NCBI GenBank assembly: GCA_910573755.1
Contig: CAJTBO010000032.1
Coordinates: 1-55,420, forward strand
DNA: 55,420 bases
Direction of reading: 5' to 3'
Source of the DNA: Lachnospiraceae bacterium
GTDB lineage: Bacteria; Bacillota; Clostridia; Lachnospirales; Lachnospiraceae
Part shown: positions 3,287 through 51,004 of the stretch, piece by piece
How the letters are laid out: each line of letters starts with the position of its first letter
Numbering within the stretch: the stretch's first letter is position 1
The notes under the pieces: model-generated
Told to the model about the DNA's origin: nothing
Database searches by the model: none
What the model saw: the letters and a program-made list of their open reading frames with translations, nothing else
Made by a program: the position numbers and the translations under genes

Positions 3287-4399
3287 CTATATCAGCTGCC
3301 TTCCCGCGCCCATCATCTTCCCGAGCTGCTCCACGATCCCGGCGCTGCCGTTTACGGAGATCTCGCCCACCTTTTCGCAGATCTTCTCCAGATACTCCAG
3401 TTCCTTCAATTTATAGAGGGTCGCGTTCTCCTCCATCAGCTTCGCCGTGTTGAGAAGGGATCTGGTGGACGCCACCTCCTCTCTTCTCGAGATCACATTT
3501 GCCTGTGCCGTTTTCTCCGCCACAAGGACGCAGTTCATGATCTCCCGGATCTCCCCGGGCAGAATGATATCCTTGATTCCCGCTGTCAGGAAATTGACGC
3601 AGAACATCTCCTCCCACTCCTTCAGCGCGCCGAAAATCTCCTTTGAGATCTGTTCTTTCGCCTCCAGTATCTCATCCAGTTTGTAATTTCCCACAACTTC
3701 CCGGATGGCAAGCTGTACCGCGGGATAAAGCTGCCCCTTCAGATCGGAGATCCTCGAGACAAACTCCACCGCATCCCGCACTTTATACATACACGCCACG
3801 TTCATCCGGATACCGATCTTATCCTTTGTCAGAATCTCCTGACCCACGATATCCAGTTCCTTCTGTTTCATATCGATGACCAGAGATGTCACCGCGTGGT
3901 TGTAATTCCAGAAGCGGTACACGCCTCTGTCAAGCGGTTTTTGCAGCACATTGTCATAATAGATCAGGCCCGTTTCACCCTCTCCTACCCGCACTTCCGT
4001 GTAGAACTGCTTCGGGAGTATCGCAAGCATCTGTCTTGTGATCTCCGCACCCATCACGGTCTTTTCCATCGAAAATACTTTTAATTCAAACCGGTCGAAT
4101 ACATTCCAGAAAATATATTCTTTCCGGCTTGCAAAGGAAGCCAGCTTTCCGTTTTTGTACAGAAATCCCACCGAGCCGTCCGGTATCTCCATATGTACGG
4201 AAGCCTCCAGAAACGCCGGGTCCTTTGAAAGTACCTGATAGGGAATCTCCGTATAATTCATCTCTCCCGACATCTCCTTTACTGCCACCGTATAACCTGC
4301 CATATTGGAAAAATGATAGACTCCCGATCTGATCATTTTCTGAAACACGCCGTTCTTTAATACAAATCCTGCCTGATTATCTTTGATAATATATTTCAT
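3287..4399 (-). CDS. Slipin family protein (SPFH/band-7 domain)
   Basis: A 370-residue protein with an SPFH/band-7 core: the V-I-D-M-K-Q-K-E-L-D...G-Q-E-I-L-T-K-D block, an A-V-Q-L-A-I-R-E-V-V-G block and a C-terminal A-E-K-T-A-Q-A-N-V-I-S-R-R-E-E helix predicted to oligomerise. Unlike classical slipins it lacks an obvious N-terminal membrane hairpin and instead has two repeated beta-rich segments (about 1-110 and 130-190) before the SPFH core. The start is at 4399, where AGGGAGG lies seven bases upstream; a start at 4438 has no such site. It is transcribed in the same direction as rtcB and lies downstream of the tRNA-like RNA. Slipins recur next to RtcB in bacterial RNA-repair operons, so a role in that system, perhaps as a scaffold, is likely. 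Confidence 0.8.
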   Translation of the reverse strand: MKYIIKDNQAGFVLKNGVFQKMIRSGVYHFSNMAGYTVAVKEMSGEMNYTEIPYQVLSKDPAFLEASVHMEIPDGSVGFLYKNGKLASFASRKEYIFWNVFDRFELKVFSMEKTVMGAEITRQMLAILPKQFYTEVRVGEGETGLIYYDNVLQKPLDRGVYRFWNYNHAVTSLVIDMKQKELDIVGQEILTKDKIGIRMNVACMYKVRDAVEFVSRISDLKGQLYPAVQLAIREVVGNYKLDEILEAKEQISKEIFGALKEWEEMFCVNFLTAGIKDIILPGEIREIMNCVLVAEKTAQANVISRREEVASTRSLLNTAKLMEENATLYKLKELEYLEKICEKVGEISVNGSAGIVEQLGKMMGAGRQLI

Positions 4400-4878
4400 A
4401 ACAATACCTCCCTGTATGATTTTTATCCTGTTTTCCATAAGCCGGCAAATCCTCCCTGAACCGGTGGGAAATTGTCCGTCCTGCCGCTTAAACCGTGTCC
4501 GTATGGTTCCTGCAAGATCTGAATAATATTGTATCCCTCATTCATCCGCCTGATGCGGAAGATCCGTTCAGCAGGACTTTCAGGGAAAGGACAGGCTGCC
4601 TCCGATACTTTTTCTTATCCCGCAGATCCGCGCTCTCTCAGACAGGAGCTTTGGGACAAAATGCGTCCGGCTGCACCTGTTGCCCGGCTTTACCCGATCA
4701 CCGTTACCGGTTCTGTATCACCGGATAAACGGGACCGCTCTGCCGCGCGCCTGATGCCGCGGATCTTTGTTCCTGAAAAAATATCCTCTGCAGACTGCTG
4801 TTTCGCCGTCCATCCTGCGGTATCCCGGATCTTCAGGCAAAAGACGGACCGGCACAAGCTGCGCTTACGCCTGAAATC
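4400..4878. other. Intergenic stretch between slipin gene and tRNA-like RNA
   Basis: About 480 bases without a convincing gene; open frames here show no protein-like composition or ribosome binding site. It may be transcribed as the leader linking the tRNA-like RNA to the slipin gene. A GATACAAT -10-like sequence (minus strand, about 4529-4536) could be a separate slipin promoter, but no good -35 element accompanies it. Confidence 0.4.
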
Positions 4879-5024
4879 AGGATAACAACATAGGTTTTGC
4901 GGATTCGAACCGCAGACTTGACAGGTCTTTCCATTTGTTGTGCGCTCTACCAACTGAGCTACCGTTTACACGAGGGGGATTTGAACCTCCCGACAACACA
5001 ATCCTTTCTTAACACCACGTTAAG
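4879..5024 (-). ncRNA. Y RNA-like, circularly permuted tRNA mimic
   Basis: Read on the minus strand, the order is: 5' half of a helix TTGTG (5001-4997), six bases, a T-arm with GGAGG-TTCAAAT-CCCCC (4990-4974), a 14-base acceptor-like linker able to form TCG/CGG (4973-4960, ending in the usual TA), a D-arm GCTCAGTTGGTAGAGC (4959-4944), one base, then CACAA (4942-4938), which pairs perfectly with TTGTG. This is tRNA topology opened at the anticodon stem and closed at the acceptor, as known for bacterial Y RNAs such as YrlA. A second T-arm-like hairpin TGCGG-TTCGAAT-CCGCA follows (4914-4898), and AGGA/TCCT can close the whole. A 6-bp hairpin (5024-5008) precedes it. No canonical tRNA fits, because the 5' acceptor partner is missing. 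It lies between rtcB and the slipin gene on the same strand. Confidence 0.7.
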
Positions 5025-5072
5025 CTCTATGAAATATTTATGGTATACCGGACAGTACGCTGCCGGCACCGC

Positions 5073-5099
5073 CGGGCAGGAAGTATCTTCCGATGCCCG
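5073..5099 (-). other. Strong bulged hairpin between rtcB and the tRNA-like RNA
   Basis: CGGGCA, a two-base bulge, GGAAG, a three-base loop, CTTCC and TGCCCG form an 11-bp stem. There is no T-run after it, so it is not a typical terminator. It may be a processing site that separates the rtcB message from the structured RNA, or the 5' domain of that RNA. Confidence 0.45.
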
Positions 5100-5182
5100 C
5101 GCTCTATAAATTATTTCCTCATTTAAGTTACAGTGCCTTCCAGGCTTCGCTTCACACCGCAAAGTCCCGGACAGGCTGTTTT

Positions 5183-6421
5183 TCATCCCTTCACGACGCC
5201 CACCGTCCTCAGTTTCCTTACGGGCGTGACCATATCCTGCTGCTGTGCCATGACCAGATCGATATCCTTATAGGCAAACCGGCATTCCTCCGCCACATCG
5301 TTTTTCTTCCGCTTTCCCAGCACAACATCCTGCTCCTTTAAATCCACCATGACCTGTTCCGTGCTGAACGCCTTCATGGCGCCTGATCTGGAATAACGCC
5401 TGCCTGCGCCGTGGGAAGAGGTGCAGAAGGATTCTCTATTCCCCCTGCCTTCCACCACATAGCTGTAAGATCCCATAGCGCCCGGTATCACAGCCATCTC
5501 GCCCTCTCTCACTCTGGTGGCTCCTTTTCTGTGTACCCACACATTGGCGTCATAATGGTTTTCCAGCGCCGCATAATTGTGGTGACAGTTGATCTCCGTG
5601 CCGAATTCCACACTGAGCCCCGTATGCTTCCCGATCAGCTCCTTCACCACCCCGCAGGTTTTATCCAGCATACGGGCACGATTTTCAAAAGCATAATCCA
5701 GAGCAAGGTTCATCCAGTTGATATACTGCTGCCCCTCTCTGGAAGAGACAGGCAGAAACGCCAGATGATATTCCTCTTTTACCTCGCTGTACCATCTCCT
5801 GTTCAGTTCCCTTGCTTTCTGATGGAAGTGGTCGCAGATCGCTTTCCCGAGATGACGGCTGCCGGAATGGATCATAATGCAGAGAAACCCCTGCTGATCC
5901 TCCTGCAGCTCAATAAAATGATTGCCGCCTCCCAGACTTCCCACCTGAAAATATCCGTCGTCGATCAGTTCTGTTAGTTCCGCATTCTCCGCATACTTTT
6001 CCATCTCCCTCTTTGCTAAGTCAAGCACCTTTGACTCCTGGGGAACCCTGTAGCGCTCCGTATTTAACGGGATGCCCCTCATAATGCCCCCGATCATCGC
6101 CTGCACCAGAGAACCGTTCCCGGTCTGGATTTTCCGGATGTCCTCCACCCGGATATTGGTTGAAACAAAATCCATGCCGCAGCCGATATCGACTCCTACC
6201 GCATTGGGAATGATCACGTCCTTCGCGGCGATCACCCCGCCGATGGGCATCCCCTTCCCCGTATGTGTGTCCGGCATCAGGCACACCCATTTATGTAAAA
6301 AGGGAAGCTGCGACAGATGATACGCCTGCTCCAGACAGCTTTCTTCCAGACAGCCCTCATCCTCCAGCCATATTTTGATCGGAACTTTTGTTTTTTCATT
6401 ACATATGACAAACATATTCAC
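5183..6421 (-). CDS. rtcB: RNA-splicing ligase RtcB
   Basis: A 412-residue RtcB. It joins RNA ends carrying 2',3'-cyclic phosphate or 3'-phosphate to 5'-OH ends with GTP and Mn2+. Visible motifs are DTHTGKG (51-57), the metal-binding cysteine in V-G-V-D-I-G-C-G-M (Cys81), G-G-G-N-H-F-I-E (His168), I-H-S-G-S-R-H-L-G (His185, His190), N-C-H-H-N-Y (280-281), G-A-M-G-S-Y-S-Y and the S-S-H-G-A-G-R-R block (about 335-342) where the guanylylated histidine lies. All key residues are present and the length is normal for the short bacterial form. The start is GTG at 6421 or ATG at 6415; both follow AAAGGA. No rtcA cyclase is adjacent. The neighbours are a tRNA-like RNA and a slipin downstream and two WYL regulators divergently upstream. 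Confidence 0.95.
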   Translation of the reverse strand: MNMFVICNEKTKVPIKIWLEDEGCLEESCLEQAYHLSQLPFLHKWVCLMPDTHTGKGMPIGGVIAAKDVIIPNAVGVDIGCGMDFVSTNIRVEDIRKIQTGNGSLVQAMIGGIMRGIPLNTERYRVPQESKVLDLAKREMEKYAENAELTELIDDGYFQVGSLGGGNHFIELQEDQQGFLCIMIHSGSRHLGKAICDHFHQKARELNRRWYSEVKEEYHLAFLPVSSREGQQYINWMNLALDYAFENRARMLDKTCGVVKELIGKHTGLSVEFGTEINCHHNYAALENHYDANVWVHRKGATRVREGEMAVIPGAMGSYSYVVEGRGNRESFCTSSHGAGRRYSRSGAMKAFSTEQVMVDLKEQDVVLGKRKKNDVAEECRFAYKDIDLVMAQQQDMVTPVRKLRTVGVVKG

Positions 6422-6481
6422 CCCATCCTTTCCTCTCCTGCCGTACCCGAAATCCCAAAAACATCCTTCCTGTTATCGGGC

Positions 6482-6643
6482 TTACGGTATATAACAGTTC
6501 AGCCTTCGGCTTCACTGTTACGGAATCCGCCTATTCCGGATTGCCTTCGGCGATAGGCAGTTTCCCTTCCGGCTCAATTTACTGATTACCACGGACTTTG
6601 CAGTAAATGTAAAATCGTGAACTGAACTGTTATTACGGTATAT
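6482..6643. mobile_element. Short inverted-repeat element (MITE-like) with target duplication
   Basis: TAACAGTTCAG (6492-6502) and its complement CTGAACTGTTA (6622-6632) bound about 140 bp of non-coding DNA containing internal palindromes. The 11-mer TTACGGTATAT occurs directly at 6482-6492 and again at 6633-6643, as expected for a target-site duplication. There is no coding capacity. A second sequence with the same left end is at 52139. The element lies between the divergent rtcB and WYL genes. Confidence 0.65.
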
Positions 6644-6697
6644 CCCGTACTTCTTTCTGATATATTGCATTATAAGAAATATTTTCCAGGGAATCAT

Positions 6698-6726
6698 TTC
6701 AAAAAAGTTGCGAGGTATGCTATAAT
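6698..6726 (+). promoter_or_regulatory. Promoter of the WYL regulator pair
   Basis: TTCAAA (6698-6703), a 17-base spacer and TATAAT (6721-6726) preceded by TG at the extended -10 position. It lies 60 bp before the first WYL gene. Confidence 0.6.
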
Positions 6727-6785
6727 ATTAGAAATATTATGTCGGTCATATTATATCGGCGCCGGATGCGGCATGGAGACCAGAA

Positions 6786-8054
6786 ATGTCTGACTTTCAG
6801 GAACTGATCAAAAGTTTTCCAAAAACAAGGGAATATGTGCGGGACTTTTTTGTCTATGGTTTTAAGACCAGAGAGGAATTTTCAGAGAAAAGCCCCCGGA
6901 CCTACGATAACGAGAGGCGGCGGTTAGAGAGCTGGCTGGGAGAATATGTGCGGAAGGACCATGTATCCAGAGGCGCCAATATTTCCCTCGCCATAGACAG
7001 TAATCTCCTTGACACAAACCCGCTGTTCCGGGTGTGGAAAACAAAAAGCTTTACCGACAACGATATCGTGCTGCATTTCCTGATACTGGATCTGCTCCGG
7101 GACGGCGATACGCTTACCGCCGAAGAGATCACGGAACATCTGCTCACAAAGTATGAAGCATTTTTTGATACCCAGATCGTCCGCCGGAAATGCAACGCCT
7201 ATGAAAAAGAAGGGCTGCTGCAGAAAAAGAAAGCCGGAAAAACCGTCGTCTTTTCCCTCGATAATTCCCTCGCGGACTGGATCAGGTCCAACGATAATAT
7301 GCTGGACGCACTGGCATTTTACCAGATGGCAGCCTGCTTCGGCATCGTGGGAAATCACCTGATACAGCAGTTTGACCATCAGAACCAGAGTTTTCGCGTC
7401 AAACACGGCTTTTGGGTACATACGCTTGAGGATGAGATCCTTCTGGCGCTTTTACAGGCTATGAACGAAAAATGCAATGTGCATCTGGAAATAAAAAGTT
7501 CCAAAAACGGGGTGATGAACTTCTCAGAATGTACCCCTTTGCAGATTTTCACCAGTACCAGAAGCGGCAGGCGTTTTCTGTGCGGCTATGTGATCAAAAG
7601 CAGACGTTTTACCTGTTACCGGCTGGATACCGTCAAAACCGTCAGGCCCTTACAGCCCTCGGCGGAATATGACGCCCTGTTTTCCACGCTATGCCGCAAC
7701 CAGAAATGGCTCTGGGGCGTATCCTTTCAGGGAAACGGCAGCAGGCATCCGGAAAAACTGACAATGAAAATTCAGATCCGCGAGCCCGCCGAACAATATA
7801 TCATCGACCGCCTGAAGCGGGAAGGCAGGGGCGGCACAGTCACAAAAATCGAACCGGGGATCTATCAATATGAGATCGAAGTATTCGACTGCAATGAGAT
7901 GCTGCCCTGGCTGCGCACCTTCACCGGCAGGATCTTGTCCCTGACATGCACCGATCAATTTGTGGAGCATCGTTTTTACCGGGATCTGCAGGCGATGTAC
8001 CGGATGTATCAGATCGAAAAAACGCCTGCTTCTGAGTCTATACGAACGGAGTAA
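6786..8054 (+). CDS. WYL-domain transcriptional regulator (first of two)
   Basis: A 422-residue protein. The N-terminal ~150 residues are helical and include a winged-helix-like segment (L-T-A-E-E-I-T-E-H-L-L...F-D-T-Q-I-V-R-R-K). The middle (about 215-300) fits a WYL-type Sm-like beta fold with R-R-F-L-C-G-Y-V-I-K-S-R-R-F-T-C-Y-R-L-D; the C-terminal part (about 320-410) resembles the WCX extension. WYL domains bind nucleic-acid or nucleotide-like ligands and control phage-defence and RNA-repair genes. It starts with GGAG six bases before ATG and is transcribed away from rtcB, so it is the likely regulator of rtcB, the structured RNA and slipin. The next gene begins only five bases after its stop. 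Confidence 0.75.
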   Translation: MSDFQELIKSFPKTREYVRDFFVYGFKTREEFSEKSPRTYDNERRRLESWLGEYVRKDHVSRGANISLAIDSNLLDTNPLFRVWKTKSFTDNDIVLHFLILDLLRDGDTLTAEEITEHLLTKYEAFFDTQIVRRKCNAYEKEGLLQKKKAGKTVVFSLDNSLADWIRSNDNMLDALAFYQMAACFGIVGNHLIQQFDHQNQSFRVKHGFWVHTLEDEILLALLQAMNEKCNVHLEIKSSKNGVMNFSECTPLQIFTSTRSGRRFLCGYVIKSRRFTCYRLDTVKTVRPLQPSAEYDALFSTLCRNQKWLWGVSFQGNGSRHPEKLTMKIQIREPAEQYIIDRLKREGRGGTVTKIEPGIYQYEIEVFDCNEMLPWLRTFTGRILSLTCTDQFVEHRFYRDLQAMYRMYQIEKTPASESIRTE

Positions 8055-8059
8055 AACGC

Positions 8060-9133
8060 ATGGAATTATTTTCAGAAATATACAGTTGTTACTATCAGGT
8101 ACTGCGTCATCTGCTGTGCAGCCAAAATGCCCTCACACAGCAGGATATCCGCAGCCGGATCTGCGGCGAAGGCTTTGAGGAAAGCCTGCTCTCCATCATA
8201 CCGAAGCTGGAAGACGGCACCTGGAACTTATTGGAAAAGGACGGAAACCTCTTTTGTTCTAAAATCTCGTCCTCTTTTCTCACTCCCGTTTCGGATCTCG
8301 AAAAATCTTATCTCAAAGCGCTGCTGTCCGATCCCCGTATCAACCTGTTTCTGGATCGGGAACAGACCAAAGCGCTGCAGAGCATGCTCTCTGCGGTATC
8401 CCCGCTCTGGAGCCCCGGACAGTTCCGCTATTTTGACCGGTTTCCGGACGGCGACCCCTACGAAGACGAAACGTACCGCAACCGCTTCCGCACACTGTTA
8501 AAGGCGCAGAAACAGAACCGTTATGTGGACATTGATTATACTTCCCCCGCCGGCAGGCGCCTGCACCATCATTATATCCCCGCCCGTCTGGAATACTCGA
8601 TAAAAAATGACAAATTCCGGCTTCTCGCGCTGAAGCCCGAGCATCCCTCCAAAGTCCGGCAGGCCCGTTCACACCGCCGGATACAGGCGGAAGCGGAACC
8701 GGATAGAAGAACCTGCGAAACCGTCTGCCCAAATACACGGCAACAGGAACGATATCCCGCAAAATTCAGACTGGAGATCCTCAATCTTTCCCGGATACAG
8801 AGTGTCCGTCCGCTGGAAAAAACGCTCTCTTCCCCTGTGGACCTGAACGCAATGATCCGGCATTCATACTACAGGGAACCTCTGCGGCTCCGTATCGTCA
8901 ACAAGCGCAACGCCCTCGAGCGGGCAATGCTGCACTTTGCAAACTATGAAAAAAATACAACAAAAATAGATGAGGACACCTATGAATGCCTCATCTATTA
9001 TAACAGCAATATGGAGACAGAACTCCTGATCGAAGTCATGTCCTTCGGCCCCATGCTCACCGTGACCGGAAATGACAGGTTTTTAAGCCTTCTGAAAGAC
9101 CGGCTGCAAAAACAGATCAGCCTCTCGCCCTAG
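8060..9133 (+). CDS. WYL-domain transcriptional regulator (second of two)
   Basis: A 357-residue protein with the same architecture: helical N-terminal DNA-binding part (1-110), WYL core with V-D-I-D-Y-T-S-P-A-G-R...H-Y-I-P-A-R-L-E-Y and K-F-R-L-L-A-L (about 155-195), and a C-terminal WCX-like region. Between the two core halves is an arginine-rich insert (about 198-232) with little predicted order. It follows the first WYL gene by five bases, so the two are cotranscribed and probably act together, perhaps as a heteromer. Its TAG stop overlaps the stop of the convergent transporter gene at 9130-9133, leaving no room for a terminator. Confidence 0.7.
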   Translation: MELFSEIYSCYYQVLRHLLCSQNALTQQDIRSRICGEGFEESLLSIIPKLEDGTWNLLEKDGNLFCSKISSSFLTPVSDLEKSYLKALLSDPRINLFLDREQTKALQSMLSAVSPLWSPGQFRYFDRFPDGDPYEDETYRNRFRTLLKAQKQNRYVDIDYTSPAGRRLHHHYIPARLEYSIKNDKFRLLALKPEHPSKVRQARSHRRIQAEAEPDRRTCETVCPNTRQQERYPAKFRLEILNLSRIQSVRPLEKTLSSPVDLNAMIRHSYYREPLRLRIVNKRNALERAMLHFANYEKNTTKIDEDTYECLIYYNSNMETELLIEVMSFGPMLTVTGNDRFLSLLKDRLQKQISLSP

Positions 9134-49861: not shown

Positions 49862-51004
49862 CTACCTGTTTTCCATCTGCCCCTGCTTCATCCTCTCCAG
49901 CTTTTCCTTCTTATAGGCAGCAAACCTCCCCTCATCCAGCGCATCCCTGATCTCAGTCATCATGGTATTGTAGAAATACAGGTTGTGCAGCACGCAAAGC
50001 CGCATGCCGAGCATTTCCTTCGCCTTCAGCAGATGCCGGATATAGGCTCTCGAATAGCGCCTGCAGGCGGGACAGCCGCAGCCTTCCTCGATAGGGCGCA
50101 TATCCTTCTCATACTTCTGGTTAAACAGGTTGATCTTCCCGAAATTCGTATACAGATGCCCGTGCCTGCCGTTCCTGGACGGATAGACACAGTCAAAAAA
50201 GTCCACGCCCCGCTCCACCGCTTCTAAAATATTGGCAGGCGTCCCCACGCCCATCAGATAAACAGGCTTGTTCTCCGGCAGATAGGGCACCGTCTCCTCC
50301 AGAATGTGATACATCTCCTCATGGGTTTCCCCCACCGCAAGGCCGCCCACCGCATAGCCGTCCAGATCAAGTTCCGCTATCCGTTTCGCATGTTCGATCC
50401 GGATATCATCGAAAATAGCGCCCTGATTGATGCCGAACAGAAGCTGGGACGGATTGATCGTCCCCTCTAACCCGTTTAACTCCCGCATCTTTTTCTGACA
50501 GCGCACAAGCCATCTTGTGGTCCGGTCCACGGAATTCTGCACATAGGGCCTGTCCGCCTTGCTGGAGGGACACTCGTCGAAAGCCATCGCTATAGTGGAA
50601 CCCAGATTGGACTGGATCTGCATGCTCTCCTCCGGCCCCATAAAGATCTTTCTGCCGTCTATATGGGAATGGAACGCCACGCCCTCCTCCGTGATCTTTC
50701 TGAGCTTTGCCAGTGAAAAGACCTGAAATCCTCCGGAATCCGTCAGAATCGGCTTCTCCCAGGACATAAACTTATGCAGGCCGCCCACCGATTTTATCAA
50801 CTCATCTCCCGGCCTCACATGCAGATGGTAAGTATTGGAAAGTTCCACCTGTGTCCCGATCTCTTCCAGATCGGATGTGGCAACAGCTCCTTTGATCGCC
50901 GCCACAGTACCTACATTCATAAAGACAGGGGTCTGCACCACGCCGTGCACCGTTGTCATTTCCGCGCGCTTTGCCCTGCCTTCTTTTTTTAAAATCCTAT
51001 ACAT
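49862..51004 (-). CDS. tgt: Queuine/preQ1 tRNA-guanine transglycosylase
   Basis: A 380-residue TIM-barrel enzyme that swaps guanine 34 for preQ1 in GUN-anticodon tRNAs. It has V-F-M-N-V-G-T, the catalytic aspartate in L-T-D-S-G-G-F-Q-V-F-S-L, the nucleophile region D-F-F-D-C-V-Y-P-S-R-N-G-R-H-G and the zinc site C-G-C-P-A-C-R...L-H-N-L-Y-F-Y. Length is normal. It is followed by yajC on the same strand and preceded by the vanY-type gene. Confidence 0.95.
   Translation of the reverse strand: MYRILKKEGRAKRAEMTTVHGVVQTPVFMNVGTVAAIKGAVATSDLEEIGTQVELSNTYHLHVRPGDELIKSVGGLHKFMSWEKPILTDSGGFQVFSLAKLRKITEEGVAFHSHIDGRKIFMGPEESMQIQSNLGSTIAMAFDECPSSKADRPYVQNSVDRTTRWLVRCQKKMRELNGLEGTINPSQLLFGINQGAIFDDIRIEHAKRIAELDLDGYAVGGLAVGETHEEMYHILEETVPYLPENKPVYLMGVGTPANILEAVERGVDFFDCVYPSRNGRHGHLYTNFGKINLFNQKYEKDMRPIEEGCGCPACRRYSRAYIRHLLKAKEMLGMRLCVLHNLYFYNTMMTEIRDALDEGRFAAYKKEKLERMKQGQMENR

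Follow-up and report, generated by a model that had tools for sequence, protein, structure and literature searches.

Bacterial RtcB ligases rejoin cut RNAs with 5'-OH and 2',3'-cyclic-phosphate ends, and which substrates they repair, what induces them and why they keep company with tRNA-like RNAs and scaffold proteins are standing questions. All of these are raised by a locus in a 55,420-nucleotide (nt) stretch of Lachnospiraceae DNA (GCA_910573755.1, contig CAJTBO010000032.1; hereafter the window), where rtcB, a structured RNA and a slipin gene lie on the minus strand and two WYL-domain regulator genes, WYL1 and WYL2, diverge from rtcB (Table 1). A first-pass annotation made from the letters alone had described this locus as a self-contained RNA-repair module, and profile searches and RNA models found all five components where it had placed them; as a whole, that reading is partly supported. 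We propose, with a probability of about 0.6, that the locus is an RNA-repair operon controlled by the WYL pair at a 22-nt promoter element, in which the RNA and the slipin assist RtcB as a Y RNA and Ro60 may do elsewhere.

The spacer between WYL1 and rtcB holds a near-invariant 22-nt element, TTCGCAACTTTTTTGAAATGAT, 18 nt ahead of the rtcB -10 box. Within the genome (4.88 Mb, 95% complete), the window copy is the sole match at up to 3 mismatches. Among the loci scanned, the -10 box follows exactly 18 nt after the element at 86 of 98 sites (up to 3 mismatches), and with this fixed spacing the element therefore covers the usual -35 position. Loci (numbered L) come from scanning GTDB species genomes for RtcB, and the best 80 of 286 were kept; at up to 4 mismatches the element is missing from these only in L030, L042, L044 and L061, which have short upstream DNA, and in L066, where no WYL gene was found. 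In the more distant L147 and L154, a variant of the element ending TTTCCGTGAT stands right after WYL2. The first-pass annotation had suggested the whole of 6422-6785 for assays of WYL binding; much of this spacer is a dispersed repeat between the promoter and rtcB (with itself, it has 18 matches in the genome, some of them partial), and the likely operator narrows to the 22 nt of the element.

Across 250 genomes of the family (249 genera; numbered G), the form TTCGCAMCTTTTTTNNNRTGAT occurs 18 times without a mismatch. Of these perfect sites, ten precede a window-type rtcB, one a distant rtcB with the RNA (G002), three a slipin gene (G019, G179, G068) and four a gene of the DUF2828 family (G047, G143, G070, G112). 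Every window-type RtcB (17 of 17, scoring 357-380 bits) has the element, with 0-2 mismatches, no more than 370 nt upstream. WYL1 is found in 32 of the 250 genomes, among them all 18 with a perfect site (p=3.9e-19) and 27 of the 31 with a site at up to 1 mismatch (p=4.9e-27). This co-occurrence goes beyond linkage, because WYL1 lies 84 kilobases (kb) from the site in G013 and on another contig in G047, whose site is far from either contig end; WYL1 and site are likewise on different contigs in G092 and, for its slipin site, in G019, with contigs short or sites near their ends and no distance readable. The placing of the WYL pair in the regulator slot is thus upheld, unlinked cases included, while the idea of a strictly self-contained module fails, as slipin, DUF2828 and rtcB can occupy separate places under the same element. 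The co-occurrence counts used 0-1 mismatch only; at up to 2 mismatches sites appear in 83 of 250 genomes and the reversed control matches too. Reversed controls are given for this 2-mismatch threshold only, and site sets were compared by hand. Neighbours were inspected for a few 1-mismatch sites without a nearby RtcB, with G105, G127, G159, G162 and G033 outside this inspection. One such 1-mismatch site, G092:C127, has downstream genes that could not be linked to the system, and is probably a chance match.

Gene order around RtcB was kept in relatives, a point on which the first-pass annotation had staked its reading beforehand: of the 61 loci whose upstream DNA exceeds 3.5 kb, 54 have both WYL genes there, and the WYL genes, where found, lie on the strand opposite to rtcB, with L076 as the exception. 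Loci without a slipin match show the same arrangement, 22 of 27 with more than 3.5 kb upstream retaining both WYL genes (L010 and L013, with contigs that stop short, are counted among the 27). Nine slipin loci came from more distant genomes of the class, and seven of them have both WYL genes; L146 has no WYL match and L151 runs into a contig end. Five of the nine carry an RtcB of only 26.7-28.8% identity, in the order WYL1-WYL2-slipin-RtcB on one strand, and L146, L150, L151 and L153 have no RtcB match. Scanned alone, the window WYL1 and WYL2 each fall below the Pfam cut-off. At the family level, 37 of 41 WYL1 sequences match PF13280 (best 7e-8), as do 22 of 38 WYL2 sequences (best 1.8e-4), and 8 of the WYL2 sequences match WCX; the window WYL2 protein matches neither, and the PADLOC WYL models match both window proteins. 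These matches point to a WYL domain in both regulators. The WYL1 profile has a weak match (E=0.013) to PDB chain 7p5x, which we take to be the PafBC initiation complex.

The ligase itself scores 363 bits against PF01139 (cut-off 27) and is a member of the RtcB family. The catalytic residues D78/C81, H168, H185, H281 and H337 are in place, and are kept in an alignment of 12 RtcBs save for H281 in the distant L112. It is the sole RtcB found in its genome. Neither RtcA nor RtcR is among the nine proteins scanned between 104 and 11334, and no genome-wide search for RtcR was made. In agreement with the first-pass annotation, which had Ro60 as absent, TROVE/Ro60 was not found in this genome; a further 26 chosen genomes gave no TROVE either.

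In its fold, the RNA mimics a circularly permuted tRNA. A T-arm, a short capped acceptor stem, U8A9 and a D-arm are closed by a 5-base-pair (bp) anticodon stem, and an anticodon-arm-like hairpin and a second T-arm follow this core, which has the form of a tRNA cut open within its anticodon loop and sealed where the acceptor ends would lie. In an alignment of 42 sequences (the window and 41 relatives; the gap after rtcB, aligned with MAFFT and no structural guidance), the proposed structure has 91.4% of its 1504 cells paired, and in 26 of its 36 pairs both partners have changed. No shuffle of 500 matched this pairing, and slid controls were also far below. Because of this covariation and the shuffles, the fold is not a product of chance. 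In tRNA numbering, the general core has a variable region usually of 4-6 nt, a 5-bp T-stem with a 7-nt T-loop, an acceptor stub mostly of 4 bp whose cap is usually a 4-nt loop (often GNRA), U8-A9, a 4-bp D-stem, nucleotide 26 and the second anticodon-stem strand; the T-stem of the window copy has one mismatch or bulge. Our RNA model R1 scores the window RNA at 109.7 bits, the window being among its own sequences. A strict descriptor of the core, run over 1.19 Mb of loci, gave 46 matches against none for the reversed control; 45 coincide with the RNA, the match in L019 is a spurious second placement, and the descriptor misses 11 of the 50 loci where R1 reaches at least 30 bits. Acceptor stubs vary with compensating changes (CCGU/ACGG, CCAU/AUGG, CUGC/GCAG, CAGA/UCUG, CGGC/GCCG; up to 7 bp in L079), and here only the variety counts, because the descriptor itself demands pairing. 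In this work on the RNA, A1 left out L008, L018, L044, L052, L068 and one-T-arm loci, and A2 left out L062 and L081. ARAGORN found no tRNA in the window, and no Rfam family reached threshold in the whole of it.

Among the nine distant loci, R1 gave 50-56 bits in L146, L148, L150 and L152 and a weak 12.3 bits in L147; it found no RNA in L149, L151, L153 and L154, where T-arm-like sequences were seen by eye in all but L153. A family-wide R1 search matched 233 of 250 genomes. Its tally was set aside because the examined matches below 50 bits were partly tandem tRNAs and partly real mimics; two matches above 50 bits, in G169 and G042, are tandem tRNAs. Individual loci show variations on the fold. 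In L018 (Roseburia sp. 1XD42-69, about 7470-7637) the permuted T-acceptor-D module is duplicated in tandem, giving three T-arms, and in L068 (7379-7547) long insertions, as read by eye, enlarge the acceptor cap and the anticodon-like region, and the core is kept. In L079 (7349-9650), which has no slipin match, a 715-amino-acid protein that could not be clearly assigned to a family (best Pfam E=0.13) separates rtcB from a permuted mimic whose acceptor stem is 7 bp long.

The RNA travels with slipin. Over 77 loci with at least 1.5 kb downstream, counting the RNA at R1 scores of at least 30 bits and leaving out L010, L012 and L013 (short downstream DNA), 47 have both RNA and slipin, 27 have neither, two have slipin only (L055, L071) and one has RNA only (L079); the association is strong (Fisher p=2.5e-17 over the 77 loci). 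All that is left of slipin in L055 is a C-terminal remnant immediately behind rtcB, and L008 has a truncated RNA that continues into the middle of slipin. On the RtcB tree the slipin label changes 17 times and the RNA label 18 times. RNA and slipin are one unit, and the RNA is linked to slipin rather than to RtcB as such. The first-pass annotation was right in seeing a tRNA mimic, which covariation confirms; to be corrected are its fold, which is permuted and YrlA-like, and its partner, which by co-occurrence is slipin.

YrlA (RF02553) is the best Rfam family for the RNA. The stretch 4430-5300 alone gives 29.3 bits (E=4e-4) against its gathering cut-off of 69, and 23.6 bits (E=0.025) against tRNA. 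YrlA scores of 24.9-47 bits were obtained in nine of ten sources, the window's own stretch being one of the nine and the tenth holding no such RNA. Like YrlA and Y RNAs, the RNA sets a permuted T-arm, acceptor hairpin and D-arm on an anticodon-stem helix, and covariation and the descriptor both recover this T-acceptor-D body. A review describes YrlA as a tRNA-like domain upon a large stem that tethers Rsr (Ro60) (PMC8394870). Unlike YrlA, the RNA here has extra anticodon-like and T-arm hairpins and a slipin as companion gene, and the long basal stem for Ro60 is unmatched, with basal pairs mostly failing in the window alignment.

A 7-nt hairpin loop of anticodon type is present in 32 of 56 RNAs and absent from 24; the loops of L146 and L148 lack U33, and three extra hairpins of these two loci are outside the tally. 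G34-U35 is read in 23 of the 32, in distant lineages too (L065, L069, L071, L075, L146, L148, L152, L212), and other anticodons in L002, L024, L026, L027, L029, L070, L080, L147 and L150. GUN anticodons are those of Asp, Asn, His and Tyr, and are also the set modified with queuosine and targeted by colicin E5. By eye, a second module of T-arm, acceptor, D-arm and anticodon arm follows in L146, L148, L150 and L152, L212 has a single module ending in an anticodon arm (CUCGA-CUGUUAA-UCGAG), and L213 has two T-acceptor-D modules in tandem. From these variants, the tRNA shape seems to persist while its opening point shifts between lineages. Far from the operon, the window also holds a gene recognised by eye as Tgt, tRNA-guanine transglycosylase (49862-51004, minus strand), an enzyme that modifies GUN anticodons.

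Under the element, slipin can give way to another protein. In L045 slipin is missing, and a tRNA-like RNA (R1 26.8 bits) and a DUF2828/DUF7788 protein precede rtcB with the same element; the protein matches DUF2828 and DUF7788 at 142.9 and 143.6 bits, and vWA models weakly. L190, L195, L196 and L198 combine the WYL pair, the element and DUF2828, three of the four with a distant RtcB, and L188 and L194 have the element and DUF2828. R1 found no RNA beside DUF2828 in L188 (at most 15.9 bits), L190, L194, L195, L196 and L198, and the pairing of RNA with DUF2828 is supported in L045 and L113 only. DUF2828 was not found in the window's genome; it is present in 7 of 27 chosen genomes bearing the element or WYL genes (in G242 away from the element), and TROVE in none. 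The DUF2828 protein may serve as a Ro60-like scaffold, any link between DUF2828 and TROVE being an assumption of ours. L113 (6872-8603) has a gene that is DUF2828-like, judged by the resemblance of its start to that of L045, and immediately before it a YrlA-like RNA that scores 45.7 bits with the basal stem matched; no RtcB was found in its genome, which is 67% complete. L112 (5046-8652) has a distant RtcB, a permuted tRNA mimic (YrlA 47 bits) and a 692-amino-acid gene of no identified family, with the promoter element upstream and WYL1 about 12 kb off.

Table 1. Features of the RtcB locus, in window positions (AC, anticodon).
Feature	Position	Strand	Basis or remark
Slipin/Band-7 (SPFH) gene	3287-4438	(-)	PF01145 E=3.5e-27; best solved stomatin chain E=2.7e-23; co-occurs with the RNA
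Structured tRNA-like RNA	about 5024-4898	(-)	between rtcB and slipin gene
5' hairpin CUUAAC...GUUAAG ahead of permuted core	5008-5024	(-)	helix 1: 76.5% of cells paired, 5/6 pairs changed on both sides
Permuted tRNA core	4938-5001	(-)	covariation; R1 model; descriptor scan
Core: AC-stem 5' strand	5001-4997	(-)	then variable region
Core: T-arm	4990-4974	(-)	
Core: acceptor stub with GUAA cap	4973-4962	(-)	then U8A9
Core: D-arm	4959-4944	(-)	then nt 26
Core: AC-stem 3' strand	4942-4938	(-)	
Anticodon-arm-like hairpin AGAC-CUGUCAA-GUCU	4914-4928	(-)	helix 7: 93.9% of cells paired, 4/4 pairs changed on both sides; loop tally
Second T-arm-like hairpin	4899-4913	(-)	helix 8: 100% of cells paired, 2/4 pairs changed on both sides
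RtcB RNA ligase	5183-6421	(-)	PF01139 E=2.9e-108
Stretch with dispersed repeat, not part of the system	6470-6665		between promoter and rtcB start codon
-10 box TATAAT	6669-6674	(-)	18 nt past element; same spacing in 86/98 sites
Operator-like element CTCGCAACTTTTTTGAAATGAT	6693-6714	(-), reading toward rtcB	single genome match at up to 3 mismatches; kept in relatives
WYL1 regulator	6786-8054	(+)	family matches to WYL; PADLOC WYL E=4.8e-10; PDB 7p5x E=0.013, weak
WYL2 regulator	8060-9133	(+)	family matches to WYL; PADLOC WYL E=2e-6

The WYL pair probably controls an RNA-repair regulon in which the RNA and slipin replace Y RNA and Ro60. In the mechanism we propose, a PafBC-like WYL duo would use the 22-nt element as substitute for a -35 box and, on binding a damage ligand, would drive rather than repress transcription of rtcB, the RNA and slipin. 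RtcB would rejoin cut RNAs, while the RNA would be a trans-acting, Y-RNA-like adaptor whose permuted body presents a tRNA elbow. Slipin may hold the added arms of the RNA, and the two together could form a scaffold, or a quality control of broken RNAs, for RtcB. One regulator pair, one promoter element and a set of exchangeable effectors (rtcB, slipin with RNA, DUF2828) are defined well enough for testing; the element makes the inducer assayable by reporter, and the RNA is a defined substrate for binding and cleavage assays. The locus is a good system for how bacteria sense and mend cut tRNAs.

Parts of this arrangement have been met before. Burroughs and Aravind, in a 2016 abstract (Nucleic Acids Research, NAR), reportedly described modules of SPFH/Band-7 proteins and a novel tRNA-like molecule alongside those of TROVE and Y RNAs, as their scaffold counterpart; the abstract is said to name no permuted fold, anticodon arm, WYL operator or shared regulon. 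RtcB, a Band-7 protein and a tRNA-like RNA, the neighbours that define that system, are found here, so the core association is known and the topology, arm, element and regulon are additions. The permuted fold, the anticodon-like arm, the element and the regulon appear to be new. Literature covered at abstract level, with few subscription papers, gave no account of the element, a clostridial WYL-RtcB link or the slipin RNA. The 2016 study is cited in PMC12606134. The Salmonella rsr-yrlBA-rtcBA operon with RtcR (PMC7790460) is similar in its RtcB, YrlA-type tRNA mimic and divergent regulator; it differs from the present locus, which has slipin and no Ro60/TROVE found in its genome, a TATAAT promoter with a WYL-linked element in place of RtcR, and no rtcA among the nine neighbouring proteins scanned. 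The PafBC heterodimer acts by sigma adaptation, its own-motif promoters being used once single-stranded DNA binds the WYL domains (PMC11804915). Like this mycobacterial pair, the locus has two adjacent WYL genes, and a -10 box with a specific element at fixed spacing and no normal -35; unlike it, the element and targets are others and the sequence link is weak. Of the marks of a PafBC-type heterodimer, activated by single-stranded DNA and acting by sigma adaptation, only the promoter geometry agrees, and the WYL pair is a candidate heterodimer.

Several observations weigh against the proposed operon and its wiring. Similarity between the WYL1 and WYL2 profiles is weak (probability 13%). Seven of the nine distant Clostridia loci (L146, L148-L153) have no element at up to 4 mismatches. 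In the family genomes, 4 of 31 with a site at up to 1 mismatch have no WYL1, two genomes with WYL1, G169 and G240, lack a site even when 2 mismatches are allowed, and G026, G051 and G194 have only 2-mismatch sites. This test is also only partly independent, because the form of the element was read from RtcB-selected loci, some from the same genomes (G002). Folding energy taken by itself does not set the window RNA apart (z=0.18). Well-supported branches of the RtcB tree leave 6 independent RNA/slipin contrasts, with a sign-test median of p=0.125; on average the RNA goes with slipin in 4.3 of these and against it in 0.2, which does not reach significance by itself. Finally, because the RNA nearly always precedes slipin, a role in cis has to be reckoned with.

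In that case, the tRNA-like fold would be a leader in the slipin mRNA and would tune slipin expression on being bound by RtcB, by a nuclease or by some tRNA enzyme. The RNA does stand upstream of slipin in both orders, RtcB-RNA-slipin and RNA-slipin-RtcB, and L045 and L113 have it ahead of DUF2828-type genes. We nevertheless consider a leader rather unlikely, as anything between 162 and 698 nt separates the second T-arm from slipin (not counting L060 and L062, for which a set length of 1,000 nt was used, or L044 and L052, which have no slipin), the slipin of L060 starts about 3 kb after rtcB, the RNA of L112 sits between RtcB and the gene of no identified family, and the closest known fold, YrlA, is trans-acting. 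It is also conceivable that the RNA serves to divert or detect anticodon nucleases, as a decoy or sensor that they would cut or nick before other targets and that would so report damage to RtcB or the WYL pair. Its resemblance to a tRNA opened in the anticodon loop, with a GUN anticodon arm, would suit such a role, as would the prevalence of G34-U35 across distant lineages noted above, and Hughes et al. suggest that YrlA could competitively inhibit the nuclease (PMC7790460). YrlA itself is not cut according to the same text, 24 of the 56 RNAs have no anticodon-type loop and nine loci read other anticodons, which makes a decoy quite unlikely. A fuller version of our reading, in which the WYL pair senses broken tRNA and induces RtcB together with an RNA imitating an anticodon-cleaved GUN tRNA as nuclease bait or template, slipin builds a repair particle and the permutation point moves, we regard as unlikely in its entirety. 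That the RNA is merely a functionless, decayed pair of tRNA genes is barely credible: it does hold two T-arms and one D-arm, and tandem tRNAs reach 60 bits with R1, but the T-acceptor-D order with a capped stub is unlike tandem tRNAs with their full acceptor stems and spacers, and covariation is strong, ARAGORN sees no tRNA here and the link to slipin is strict.

Slipins of this specialised type are sparse, occurring at 379 bits or more in 10 of 391 genomes of the class sample; 21 other genomes of that sample have a slipin match at E<=1e-20, all below 100 bits, and the phylum sample has a match at E<=1e-40 in 7 of 398. A mobile origin was considered and set aside, as no slipin relative was confirmed in IMG/VR and a phage collection gave one weak partial match (27% over 34%). 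Among other RtcBs of the family, G110 has two of a much higher-scoring type (G110:C61 and G110:C21, 582 and 547 bits), and the stretch around the former (L200) has neither the element nor a WYL match. At the far side of the window locus, the end of WYL2 overlaps that of a convergent SBF-type transporter gene by 4 bases (9130-9133).

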